Source of the DNA: Candidatus Colwellia aromaticivorans
GTDB taxonomy: Bacteria; Pseudomonadota; Gammaproteobacteria; Enterobacterales; Alteromonadaceae
Length of the DNA stretch: 64,000 nucleotides
NCBI RefSeq assembly: GCF_003333305.1
Contig: NZ_QOLD01000028.1
Span: forward strand, 62,001-126,000
Direction of reading: 5' to 3'
Shown: in pieces, positions 9,050 through 63,493 of the stretch
Layout of the letters: the number at the start of each line of letters is the position of its first letter
Position numbering within the stretch: position 1 is the stretch's first letter
The notes under the pieces: generated by a model
The model's database searches: none
What the model was told of the DNA's origin: nothing
Seen by the model: only the letters and a program-made list of their open reading frames with translations
Program-made: the position numbers and the translations under genes

Positions 9050-9198
9050 GTAGATGGTTCAGGAGCGTCATCCCCGTGATTTCTTTGCCTACATGGATGT
9101 AGGTACTTAGCTTTGGTCTGGAACTACAAAGCTGAATCGGGGATCTAGTGTTTTAAGCACAATAGATCTTCGATCAGAGACTTCGAAGATGACGTCTA
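9050..9198. repeat. Nested palindromic intergenic repeat between edd and eda
   Basis: The outer arms are CGTCATCCCC (9066-9075) and the later CGGGGAT (9138) and GAAGATGACG (9185) segments. The core, read on the minus strand, is AGCTTTG + TAGTTCCAGAC + CAAAGCT (9133 to 9109) followed by a perfect CCTACAT-GG-ATGTAGG hairpin (9088-9103). The 27-bp block 9109-9135 occurs identically, inverted, at 26241-26267. The remaining bases to 9340 are A/T-rich and should hold the eda promoter; no gene was seen. Confidence 0.75.
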
Positions 9199-21928: not shown

Positions 21929-22088
21929 ATACCATTTGGATTAATTAAGGTTACAGAATTCAATGAGGATAAATTTTCAAGAACAAGGCGCTTGATTGAG
22001 CAATAGCTGGCTATTGGGATTGAAAGCAACGAAGTTATTGGATATTTAGGCCATTTGAAAATGATCACTTAGTTAGTGCAATTGGTAT
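21929..22088. repeat. 160-bp interspersed element with ATACCA inverted ends
   Basis: Left end ATACCATTTGGATTAATTAA and right end, inverted, ATACCAATTGCACTAACTAA form terminal inverted repeats. The interior shares ACAAGGC and AACGAAGT blocks with the inverted interior of the element at 45514, so they belong to one family. With the terminator after it, it fills most of the 316-bp fabF-pabC gap. Confidence 0.7.
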
Positions 22089-26120: not shown

Positions 26121-26181
26121 TAGCATTAATTGAAAATGCTCTTATCTTTTTTACTTTGATTATTCGTAACTACTCACCTAT

Positions 26182-26308
26182 CGTCACTCCCGAGATGTTT
26201 TAATCGGGAGTCTAATGTTTAAAACAGGCAGATTCCGGCTTCAGCTTTGTAGTTCCAGACCAAAGCTAGACCCTACGTCCTGTAGGCAAAGACACAACCG
26301 GAATGACG
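26182..26308. repeat. Nested palindromic intergenic repeat between pilZ and the TatD-type gene
   Basis: Outer arms CGTCA and TGACG enclose an inner CTCCCGA / TCGGGAG hairpin, a GATTCCGG / CCGGAATG pair, and the module AGCTTTG-TAGTTCCAGAC-CAAAGCT (26243-26267) followed by a CCTAC / GTAGG hairpin (26272-26286). The module is the same as that at 9084-9135, inverted. Confidence 0.75.
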
Positions 26309-26380
26309 TGCACGCTGGGTATGGTGAATAATTACGATTATTCTTTTTCATTATTTTTAATTTACCTGTGGAGTTTTCTG

Positions 26381-35696: not shown

Positions 35697-35963
35697 TATA
35701 CCCGCTTCACTTGAAAATGCTCGTTTCAGGAAGTCTGAGCGACTCATAATCAAGGCACATTTTTTTATTAAGGGTTATTCCCTTAAAAAGAAAGGTAACG
35801 CAGAGTATGATTTGCTCAGCCTTCCCCAATGAGCTAGTTTAGAAACGCTTTATGCTACGTTATTGATTTTGGGAAGGGAACAACCATTCTCTTCAATCAA
35901 CGCCTTGCCTAAAGTCGTTTCTAATTCCAGCTGAATCATGCATCTTCAAGTGAAACGGGTATA
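35697..35963. repeat. 267-bp interspersed element with TATACCC inverted ends
   Basis: The left end TATACCCGCTTCACTTGAA and the inverted right end TATACCCGTTTCACTTGAA are near-perfect inverted repeats. The body matches the element at 63181 over most of its length but lacks a 47-bp insert found there (63361-63407). It carries no gene. Together with the following element it fills the 774-bp gap between yciB and norQ. Confidence 0.85.
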
Positions 35964-48112: not shown

Positions 48113-48705
48113 CACAAGATAATGAGGTTTTTGCTTGAATGCAAGCGATAAAATAACTTGATTTTGGGTTGACTTTTTACCTATTTAACAGGGGTTAGTA
48201 ACAACTAACCTAGCAAGGTAAATTTGTTTGGTAATTTACTAAAAGCAATATTTTTTTTTAACATTTTTTTTAACTGAAAATATTTTAATTGATTTTTATG
48301 TCTCTATATATCAAATTGAAATATAAAAAATAAAGTCACCAATTAACAGTGACTTATTGATTTTGTTGATTGTTTGCACAACTTGCTTAAAAATTAAAAT
48401 ATGTGTTTTTAATTTTTACACTTTTTGACAACATAGAATATAATTCACGTCTAAATTGGCCGCCAACTTATGGTTCTCTGTCACTGGATTATAATGAATG
48501 CCACTGGCATCAATGCATTTCAATTGACTTTCTTCAGCCCAAGCGATTAATTGCGACGGTTTTATGAATTTATCATGACCATGCGTACCTTCAGGAACCA
48601 ACTTAAACATTGTTACTGTGGAAAACCCTAGGTAAGAGTATATTTTTCTCTTTTTGACCCCAACCATTTTAAAACCACCTAAAATAGATTGGCTCAATCA
48701 TAATC
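48113..48705 (-). pseudogene. Duplicated 3' end of ubiG with its downstream region
   Basis: Positions 48113-48705 match 49108-49695. The stretch 48240-48540, which covers the terminator and the last 50 or so codons of ubiG, is almost identical. The part farther 5' (48612-48705) is still recognisable as ubiG (remnants of the segment after 'VKPGG') but has decayed. The 93-codon frame 48416-48697 ends with the UbiG C-terminus 'NYILCCQKV' and lacks the SAM-binding domain, so it is a pseudogene fragment. Confidence 0.85.
48330..48359 (-). terminator. Terminator copy in the ubiG duplication
   Basis: AAGTCAC / GTGACTT hairpin followed on the minus strand by a T-rich run. It is identical to the one after the intact ubiG. 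Confidence 0.7.
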
Positions 48706-49073: not shown

Positions 49074-49321
49074 CTTGTCTGAAAATCAACCGATCCCCTT
49101 GCACCCCCACAAGATAGTGAGGTTTGGACTCGAATGCAAGCGATAAAAGCTATGTGTTTTTATTGACATTTTACCGAATTAATAAGGGTTAGTAACAACT
49201 AACCTAGCACGGTTAATTTATTTGGTAATTTACTAAAAGCAATATTTTTTTTAACATTTTTTTTAACTGAAAATATTTTAATTGATTTTTATGTTTCTAT
49301 ATATCAAATTGAAATATAAAA

Positions 49322-49351
49322 AATAAAGTCACCAATTAACAGTGACTTATT
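49322..49351 (-). terminator. Terminator after ubiG
   Basis: AAGTCAC / GTGACTT hairpin with 8-nt to 9-nt loop and a T-rich stretch on the minus-strand side, about 60 bp downstream of the ubiG stop. Confidence 0.75.
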
Positions 49352-49408
49352 GATTTTGTTGATTGTTTGCACAACTTGCTTAAAAATTAAAATATGTGTT
49401 TTTAATTT

Positions 49409-50137
49409 TTACACTTTTTGACAACATAGAATATAGTTAACGTCTAAATTGGCCGCCAACTTATGGTTCTCTGTCACTGGATTATAATGAATGCCACTGG
49501 CATCAATGCATTTCAATTGACTTTCTTCTGCCCAAGCAATCAATTGTGAAGGTTTAATGAATTTGTCATGATCATGTGTTCCATCAGGAACCAATTTTAA
49601 TATCTTTTCTGCTGCTACAATAGCGAGTAGATAAGATTTAACTGTTTTATTTAATGTTGAAAAAAACACTAAACCACCCGGTTTTACTAATTGCGCGCAG
49701 GCTTTTATTACTGAAGCAGGATCAGGTACATGTTCAAGCATTTCCATACAAGTAACCATGTCAAATATTTCATTGCACTGTTGTGCCTTTTCTTCAGCGG
49801 TAATTTTTTCGTAATTTATGGTTAAGCTAGATTCTAGCGCATGCAGTTTAGCGACATTGAGTGGCTCTGCCCCCATATCTATACCTGTGACCGTGGCACC
49901 CAATTTAGCTAACGATTCTGTTAATATTCCGCCGCCGCAGCCTACGTCGATTACGTTTTTTGAGAATAGCTCTTGTTTTTGTTCAGCTATATGTTGACAA
50001 ATAAATTGAACTCTTAACGGGTTAACCTGATGTAGTGGTTTAAAATCACCTGTTAGATCCCACCATTGGCTTGCGATTTGTTCAAATTTAGCAATTTCTT
50101 CTTCATTTACATTAGGCACGCTTTTATTGTCAGTCAT
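49409..50137 (-). CDS. ubiG: Ubiquinone biosynthesis O-methyltransferase UbiG
   Basis: UbiG performs both O-methylations in ubiquinone synthesis. The 242-residue protein has SAM-binding motif I '[19 protein letters not shown]', motif post-I 'VTGIDMG', and '[11 protein letters not shown]', then the family segment '[15 protein letters not shown]'. It is divergent from gyrA and upstream of nrdA, as in E. coli. Its last part and the downstream 300 bp are duplicated at 48113-48705. Confidence 0.96.
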
Positions 50138-60247: not shown

Positions 60248-60402
60248 ATATTTATTTCGTCATCAGGTATCCCTAATCGTCATAAGTACTCATTGACTAC
60301 CGTCAACTCCGTGCTTATTTCTTGAACTTGCATCACTTGATTTAGAAATAACCATCTACAGAATCAAGTGCTTTATTAATTTAAAAAGTTTAAAAAATAC
60401 AA

Positions 60403-60635
60403 CCGTTCGTCCTGAGCTTGTCGAAGGAAGCTTGTCGAAGGAAGCTTGTCGAAGGAAGCTTGTCGTACATCGACTGCTCGTGCCTCGCGCTCAGTATGAA
60501 TGGAAAAACACCGTTCGTCCTGAGTTTGTCGAAGGAAGCTTGTCGTACATCGACTGCTCGTGCCTCGCGCTCAGTATGAATAAAAAAACACCGTTCGTCC
60601 TGAGCCTGTCGAAGGAAGCTTGTCGAAGGATTTTT
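60403..60635. repeat. Tandem and interspersed repeats upstream of pyrF
   Basis: The motif CCGTTCGTCCTGAG starts at 60403, 60511 and 60591; the last two units are 80 bp apart and near-identical. The first unit is 28 bp longer because AAGCTTGTCGAAGG occurs as extra 14-bp tandem copies. Each contains the widespread TCCTGAGCTTGTCGAAGGA element. It ends about 30 bp before the pyrF ATG. Confidence 0.85.
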
Positions 60636-63180: not shown

Positions 63181-63493
63181 TATACCCAAGCCCCTTGAAG
63201 ATGCGAGTTTCAGCAAGTCTGAACAAGTTATAATCAAGGCGAATTTTTGTATTAATGGTTATCCCTTAAAAAGAAATGCAACGCAGAGTATGATTTGCTC
63301 AGCTTTGCCCGAGGGCTGGTTTAGAAACGTTTTATGCTGCGTTATTGATTTCGACAAGGACGCTACATGGATGTAGCTTACTAGAGAATGCAGGAGCACA
63401 TTCTCCTGAACAACCATTCTCTTCAATCAACGCCTTACCTAAAGACGTTTCTAATTCCAGCTGAATCCTGTATCTTCAAGTGGTTTGGGTATA
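63181..63493. repeat. 313-bp interspersed element with TATACCC inverted ends
   Basis: Left end TATACCCAAGCCCCTTGAAG and inverted right end TATACCCAAACCACTTGAAG form terminal repeats. The body matches 35697-35963 but has a 47-bp insert (63361-63407) with a GCTACAT-GG-ATGTAGC hairpin; this insert region matches, inverted, part of the composite repeat at 1100-1510. The element ends 6 nt before the msrB ATG. Confidence 0.85.

Follow-up and report, generated by a model that had tools for sequence, protein, structure and literature searches.

What kind of sequence keeps a short loop almost letter for letter while the stem that presents it changes on both arms at once? The question is raised by three dispersed hairpins in a 64,000-nucleotide stretch of the genome of Candidatus Colwellia aromaticivorans (hereafter the window), for which a preliminary description had proposed either a REP-like element acted on by a transposase-type protein or a structured RNA. 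The 11-nt loop TAGTTCCAGAC does occur at 1165-1175 and 26250-26260 on the plus strand and at 9116-9126 on the minus strand, the stems of the three copies and their three compensated pairs are exactly as first given, and the core of that description, an element defined by its fold, with compensated stems round a kept loop in many dispersed copies, is supported here. What it missed is that the hairpin belongs to a precise 49-nt insert inside other repeats. We show that this insert is a discrete unit that has been gained or lost precisely, is nested in several hosts and has kept its fold.

Aligned copies read C-S1-NNGTTCCAGAC-S1'-AAGTA-CCTACATCCNTGTAGG-CA, a discrete module of 49 nt made of C, hairpin 1, AAGTA, hairpin 2 and CA, with CAG...GGCA at its ends. 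Hairpin 1 comprises a 7-bp stem (S1), a 2-nt variable bulge, inner G-C and T-A pairs and a TCCAG-type loop, and hairpin 2 has the consensus CCTACATCC-N-TGTAGG; AAGTA forms the constant foot of the bulged hairpin 1, a constancy owed partly to the way copies were selected. The 11-nt loop, first called invariant, is better described as near-constant, since its positions 1-2 differ among copies and the inner T-A pair is replaced by C-G in 3 of 140. The inner pairs are G-C in all 140 copies and T-A or C-G in 138 of them, counts that are partly by construction because the pattern that chose these copies permitted only G, T/C, A/G and C at the four places concerned. On the minus strand the sequence is CCTACATGGATGTAGG for hairpin 2 and GTCTGGAAC for the hairpin-1 loop, with GGA in both loops, and the foot of hairpin 1 reads TACTT; the GTAG nearest to that foot lies 6 nt off, on the same strand. 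When folded as DNA, host A (described below) with its unit beat 200 of 200 shuffles (z -2.89), and RNA folding of two copies gave z-scores of -2.2, equalled or bettered by 3 of 200 shuffles, and -3.7, equalled by none.

The three copies in the window represent three states of this unit. The copy at 9086-9134 on the minus strand has the full 49 nt, with hairpin 2 as CCTACATCCATGTAGG, inside a repeat that we call host C. The copy at 26242-26288 on the plus strand runs from C through stem AGCTTTG (26243-26249), the loop (26250-26260) and stem CAAAGCT (26261-26267) to an AGAC linker, hairpin 2 CCTACGTCCTGTAGG (26272-26286) and CA; the second hairpin reported for it is there, but linker and hairpin are shortened, leaving 47 nt instead of 49. 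The third, at 1157-1253 on the plus strand (stem AGGTTCA/TGAACCT), lies in a repeat host of B type. Both arms of its hairpin 2 are present as reported (1188-1195 and 1244-1251), but they are split by a 48-nt nested insert at 1196-1243, so this copy has no simple second hairpin. The 48-nt module, also seen in locus L033 near 2030, has hairpins of its own (GAGAATG...CATTCTC and GGTAC...GTACC) and occupies the exact centre of hairpin 2, one hairpin insert thus being nested within another. Elsewhere in the window, 60394-60630 holds tandem 80-bp and 14-bp repeats around CCGTTCGTCCTGAGCTTGTCGAAGGA, and a block of more than 400 bp at 48113-48551 is repeated about 995 bp downstream at 49108-49544, its pieces being 88-98% alike.

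The boundaries of the unit are set by comparison of filled with empty hosts. Removal of 49 nt turned 59 of 148 copies into ungapped matches to an empty site, at least four of these matches (L074, L176, L185, L187) being tandem contexts in which the neighbour is another copy, whereas removal of 43, 45, 46, 47, 48, 50, 51, 52, 53 or 55 nt gave 0, 0, 0, 1, 3, 0, 0, 0, 0 and 1 matches; the other 89 copies are without an empty partner in the sampled DNA, and the number of hosts is limited. The window itself carries empty hosts. Host D is empty at 21941-22030 on the plus strand, with its junction at 21985/21986, and matches the filled copies L018, L021 and L035 minus 49 nt without gaps at 95.6-97.8%; host B is empty on the minus strand at 35878-35950, with ACGACTTTAGGCAAGGCGTTG at 35898-35918, and again at 63391-63480, with ACGTCTTTAGGTAAGGCGTTG at 63428-63448. 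No target duplication at the ends of the unit was seen in the comparisons of filled with empty hosts. Units also stand in tandem, with a period of 49 nt, and among the matches listed there are seven such pairs, of which three differ in stem 1 (L074, L186, L187), each stem perfectly paired, and four have the same stem 1 (L090, L135, L141, L188). From these filled and empty host copies, not from observation between strains, we infer that the unit has probably moved.

The hosts are themselves repeats. The copy at 26 kb lies in host A, an IS66-type MITE of 170 bp at 26166-26335 on the plus strand, with terminal inverted repeats GTAACTACTCACC/GGTGAATAATTAC and an 8-bp duplication GATTATTC on either side (26158-26165 and 26336-26343). 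The genes flanking this MITE are presumably PilZ-like and TatD-like, to judge from their sequences; the mechanically called TatD-like ORF starts inside the MITE, and the actual gene probably begins further downstream. Loci L001-L070 hold 12 more deduplicated copies of the host A MITE; the two 8-bp flanks agree in 10 of these and disagree in two. Ends like those of host A adjoin two remnants of IS66 transposases in this genome (L231, L232), but searching with that pattern gave none around its single full-length IS66 gene (L230). GTAA terminal repeats with 8-bp duplications are the rule for IS66; here they are a property of host A and are absent from the 49-nt unit. Host C, round the 9-kb copy, consists of CGTC-type palindromes, CGTCATCTTCGA... 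and ...CGGGGATGACG, of a kind reported to lack a dedicated transposase (PMC3733652). In locus L204, a RAYT gene (151 aa, above the NF047646 cut-off) is flanked by GTAG REPs whose apex is empty in some (GTCGAGGTGAACCTCGAC, 18 nt) and filled in others (67 nt). The range of hosts thus extends from the IS66-type MITE, CGTC-type palindromes and GTAG-type REPs beside a RAYT to further repeat families and arrays of hairpins. In host E the unit lies just beyond a hairpin, not within one, and in several loci the array copies start at a terminator-like T-run, just past a GTTCAGGATGAAC hairpin.

Several of these loci show further junctions that deserve a description of their own. The hairpin arrays of L071, L136, L164, L187, L189 and L194 start directly in the T-run of sequences resembling intrinsic terminators (TTTTTTATGTTCAGGATGAACGGT), and the period of these arrays is in some about 100 nt, that is 49 + 51 nt, a pattern that looks as if another module targets terminators. 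In L031, L140 and L183, from three genomes, the copies end within hairpin 2 at an identical position, CCTACATCC being followed by CTGTCTCTTGATCACAAGT, a junction that we take to be the end of an IS50-like insertion sequence preferring this palindrome. Locus L034 holds, near 1990, a chimera in which the left half of the IS66-type MITE (host A) continues, by way of the stem common to both, into the left half of the CGTC-type host (host C) in inverted orientation, and L029 and L033 have the nested 48-nt hairpin insert in common. These chimeras show that recombination between hairpins does happen.

How strongly is the fold kept? Stem letters played no part in choosing either the 140 or the 148 copies, the 140 having been selected by loop and linker alone. 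Stem 1 is fully Watson-Crick in 101 of the 140 copies and imperfect in the other 39; compensation, whose failure in further copies the preliminary description had named as a point against its reading, thus holds in the majority. There are 55 distinct arm pairs, among them 22 different perfect 7-bp stems round a near-constant loop, and stem-1 pairs form at 87% of places, compared with a mean of 66% and a maximum of 71% over 2000 re-dealings of the arms. In 95 distinct rows, two-sided changes occur at 9 of 13 pairs, and the covariation score is 0.282 against 0.076 after shuffling and at most 0.039 for slid partners, in an alignment fitted to the model. Hairpin 2 is conserved less faithfully: it has one mismatch in 37 of 121 copies and few two-sided changes, none of which falls among the 18 typed copies of the own genome. 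The compensation first noticed in three copies is accordingly strong across genera, and the convincing covariation stems from other genera; copies from a single host family share one stem, and the genome of the window on its own therefore amounts to mainly three stem types and two or three compensating events.

Nor are the copies few. A genome-wide search of the own genome (3.75 Mb in 101 contigs) found 41 exact copies of the loop against 2 for the backwards pattern, and a covariance model of both hairpins, built from the 18 typed copies and also favouring the loop, gave 83 matches at E<=1 and 67 at E<=1.3e-6. A few host families largely explain this copy number, and the concern that the copies might be recent duplicates is partly justified, in that many of those in the own genome ride in a few host repeats. 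Within the family, 62 of 196 sampled genomes and 25 of 52 genera carry the unit (E<=0.01). Of eight sampled genomes of the genus five have a match, among them four congeners with 1-3 matches each; sampled congeners of the window's genome thus range from 0 to 3 copies, while some other genomes have dozens, and scans of more than 40 genomes with stricter filters gave at least 29 copies in some. Across the class, 4 of 369 genomes matched at E<=1e-4, two of them in the same family and the others with one copy each in two other families. Named carriers are Colwellia, Cognaticolwellia, Thalassomonas, Thalassotalea and Psychrobium; bins labelled Nitrincolaceae, Bermanella and Kangiella carry the unit too, a spread beyond the order that may be binning error because these copies come from metagenome bins, some of which share data sets with Colwellia bins. 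The search of plasmids returned one record with three places, a plasmid of Saccharobesus litoralis, that of phages no match to the unit, and that of viral contigs no match to the exact pattern. The pattern used to pick the 65 loci from named genomes was exact and included GTTCCAGAC and AAGTACCTACATCC; the conservation of loop and linker among these loci is therefore by construction.

Where the unit enters a host, its right side is the more fixed. In 37 host contexts, grouped from 117 of the 140 copies by a crude k-mer rule and not all independent (the 23 dropped being 21 units whose last two bases, in register, are other than CA, TA or CG and two with short flanks), the base to the right is A in 34 and the base at +3 is G in 27; the left flank is less fixed. 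Stems formed between the two flanks of a unit are slightly longer than those between re-paired flanks (mean 3.73 bp against 3.29 in 33 contexts, a value reached in 27 of 2000 re-pairings; stems of at least 6 bp in 3 of 33, reached in 130 of 2000), and hairpin tips are therefore favoured but not required. With genes taken as mechanical ORFs of at least 80 codons, 139 copies divide into 15 at locus edges, nine in short ORFs that we judged to be spurious and 115 between genes. The intergenic copies occupy 63 same-direction, 39 convergent and 13 divergent gaps, against a background of 131, 53 and 58 that includes the copy-bearing gaps, copies in one gap being counted separately; convergent gaps are thus preferred to divergent ones (39:13 against 53:58, p=0.001). 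In genome G049 the 29 copies among the matches listed are by eye about evenly divided between the replication strands, with the origin assumed at coordinate 1. Among 288 ORFs of at least 300 bases near copies, no family recurs in more than four loci; four groups span three or four loci, and none of these is transposase-like by inspection. Genes that we take to be metK-like adjoin copies in L010, L153 and L159, as do presumed gpsA/secB-like genes in L133, L167 and L174, so that in loci of different genera either the same gaps have been hit repeatedly or an old insertion has been kept.

This context bears on the structured RNA of the preliminary description, here taken as an RNA or an RNA-binding decoy that would be transcribed from the 3' ends of genes. 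The covariation of the stems and the lower number of copies between divergent genes agree with such a role, and in a minus-strand transcript both loops would expose GGA, as in CsrA-binding hairpins, GGA in a hairpin loop being the motif that CsrA binds. However, the orientation of copies relative to neighbouring same-direction genes is 38 same to 25 opposite (p=0.13), the distribution of the unit is patchy, and the 22 copies whose stem has exactly one non-Watson-Crick pair show 3 G-T, 5 A-C or C-A and 14 other pairs, small numbers that give no G-U preference for either strand. With no clear strand bias and no G-U excess, a structured RNA is disfavoured, and we consider it improbable. A known Rfam RNA was also rejected: no family lies over the unit at the gathering score in the window or at E<=5 in five loci. 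A c-di-GMP-I riboswitch and a group II intron exceed the gathering score close to copies (L009 2066-2145; L016 2282-2358), neither of them over the unit.

If DNA is the form that matters, which enzyme would move it? None of the candidate classes is significantly associated with the unit. Y1 transposases are found in 45 of 62 copy-bearing and 77 of 134 other genomes (p=0.057), RAYTs in 35 of 62 and 68 of 134 (p=0.54) and reverse transcriptases in 35 of 62 and 66 of 134 (p=0.36), with genome lists compiled by hand and the RAYT set defined by E<=1.2e-15 and not by the curated cut-off. Of the 30 copy-rich genomes, meaning those with at least 12 copies among the matches listed per genome, 13 are without a RAYT match at E<=1.2e-15 and seven without a Y1 match at E<=1e-5; the complete genomes G007 and G013, also copy-rich, have no Y1 match at that threshold either, and in G025, where at least 29 copies were counted, Y1, RAYT and reverse transcriptase matches are all missing. 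The lack of association therefore leaves three possibilities: a different enzyme as the mover, a mover since lost, and exchange of modules through replication and recombination. Two insertion-sequence systems were considered and rejected. An IS200/IS605 derivative should have ends in common with resident elements, and these were not found in 30 Y1 loci (about 3 kb each, chosen as the top match of each genome and encoding for the most part short proteins of IS200 type), none of which held a model match at E<=1. IS110-type insertion leaves a core dinucleotide at both ends of the insert and one copy in the empty target; CA is present in the empty targets of hosts B and D, but it is absent from those of host E (GGT|ATG), host C (ATT|AAG) and the REPs (GTG|AAC).

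The unit could still be a REP of an unusual kind whose transposase, a RAYT or one of IS200 type, reads an altered guide tetranucleotide, ACTT in the minus-strand foot of hairpin 1. Its hairpin 1 has the shape in question, with a basal stem of at least 7 bp, a bulge of 1-3 nt and an inner stem, and corresponds to the REP 'long hairpin' as defined in the literature (PMC6006769); target duplication is lacking, the conserved flank is mainly one-sided, three copies lie round one RAYT (L204), and G007 and G013 do give weak RAYT-profile matches (best E 1.6e-7 and 2.0e-8). Against these points, no GTAG lies within 0-2 nt of the hairpin, confident copies occur in none of the 30 Y1 loci and in one of 20 Y1/RAYT loci (one further locus matching at E=0.31), the three copies of that lone positive locus are inserts in the RAYT's own GTAG REPs, and strong RAYT matches and Y1 matches are missing from the 13 and seven copy-rich genomes just named. 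We find a REP of this kind hard to credit, and the RAYT-dependent version of the element first proposed, with no GTAG at the hairpin foot and RAYT loci nearly free of copies, found no support. An ordinary GTAG REP was rejected outright, GTAG or GTGG being absent 0-2 nt 5' of the hairpin and copies not flanking RAYTs, and the GTAG REP/RAYT system failed on co-occurrence across genomes.

We favour a non-autonomous mobile element of 49 nt that probably acts as folded single-stranded DNA and is also carried by its hosts. Such a unit would insert with exact ends and no target duplication; its usual site would lie immediately 5' of A-N-G, and in many cases at a hairpin tip of another repeat or adjacent to one. 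Its active form may be one folded DNA strand, on which an enzyme supplied in trans would read the loop and foot of hairpin 1, cut at the ends of the unit and paste it into another folded strand; if loop and foot are what is read, selection would keep the fold while the letters of the stem drift. Many of the copies in a genome would be multiplied by hosts such as the IS66-type MITE at 26166-26335, and not by the unit. A mainly one-sided flank, the lack of duplication and a bulged hairpin with a constant foot recall, by analogy, IS200/IS605 elements and REPs. Counting against a mobile element are the failure to find a mover among the Y1, RAYT and reverse transcriptase associations, the modest preference for hairpin tips, the frequent mismatches of hairpin 2 with its few two-sided changes, and the 39 imperfect first stems. 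More tentatively, we suggest that an undescribed nuclease or recombinase that reads hairpins could act on the unit; it would cut the 49-nt double hairpin out of one strand, paste it into hairpin tips and so nest elements in one another; recognition of loop and foot only would leave the stems free to drift in pairs. As part of the same suggestion, and with equally low confidence, this enzyme might be distinct from RAYTs, IS200/IS605 transposases and reverse transcriptases.

It is also conceivable, if rather unlikely, that no dedicated enzyme is involved, and that replication slippage, template switching and recombination at cruciforms account for the exchange and insertion of hairpin modules. 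Intrastrand template switching would then rewrite one arm of a stem from the other, so that compensation is only apparent, and by itself it would yield perfect stems. The chimera with its breakpoint at the stem (L034), the nested insert common to L029 and L033 and the lack of any significant enzyme association fit this account. Nevertheless, the 49-nt boundaries recur across hosts and the mainly one-sided A-N-G flank is kept, neither of which is expected from ad hoc slippage; neighbouring tandem units differ in stem in three of the seven pairs among the matches listed, and the 22 stems with exactly one non-Watson-Crick pair are partly mispaired.

Tiny mobile repeats without a known mover, such as mitochondrial double-hairpin elements, the small mobile repeats (SMRs) of Haloquadratum, SDR5 of Nostoc and CGTC palindromes, are an old puzzle, for which the double-hairpin unit offers an unusually clean case in culturable marine bacteria, with exact boundaries and with empty and filled hosts in one genome. 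Exact boundaries, filled and empty hosts, uneven copy numbers and paired changes make the search for a mover directly testable, and the unit illustrates the assembly of compound intergenic repeats through nesting. The double-hairpin elements of fungal mitochondria are said to have been described by Paquin in 2000, and SDR5, which is shorter than the 49-nt unit, reportedly by Elhai in 2008.

Searches covering open-licence PMC papers found no description of the 49-nt unit in titles and the opening lines of abstracts. The IS66-type MITE encloses the 26-kb copy, and the terminal repeats and duplications belong to the MITE. GTAG- and CGTC-tagged REPs are likewise small intergenic palindromes, some with bulged hairpins (PMC3733652, PMC6006769), but the unit has no tag at its foot and such REPs serve as its hosts. 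PATEs, non-autonomous relatives of the IS200/IS605 type, have palindromes near their ends, no target duplication and no transposase of their own (PMC3119063); the unit resembles them in its palindromes near the ends and its exact 49-nt empty sites without duplication, but no matching IS200/IS605 element was found, its hairpins occurring in 0 of 30 Y1 loci. SDR5 is, as cited in PMC4390886, a small module inserted precisely within the repeat HIP1, its described insertion being inside one octamer, whereas the 49-nt unit has several hosts and two hairpins. SMR-A of Haloquadratum walsbyi is an archaeal element of about 110 bp with prominent terminal inverted repeats (PMC3119063). Like the unit, it is short, too small for a transposase, without target duplication and able to enter palindromes of other mobile elements, and the unit enters CGTC palindromes and the tips of GTAG REPs without duplication, while in host E it lies beside the hairpin; unlike SMR-A as there described, the unit has 49 nt, two hairpins and no long terminal repeats, and is bacterial. 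The double-hairpin elements of fungal mitochondria, likened here by description, also consist of two adjacent hairpins and are small, dispersed, potentially mobile and mainly intergenic (PMC10085805), but they are mitochondrial, whereas the unit is bacterial and has a 49-nt boundary inside host repeats. Among these systems, the unit would work most like the small mobile repeats of Haloquadratum and the mitochondrial double-hairpin elements.
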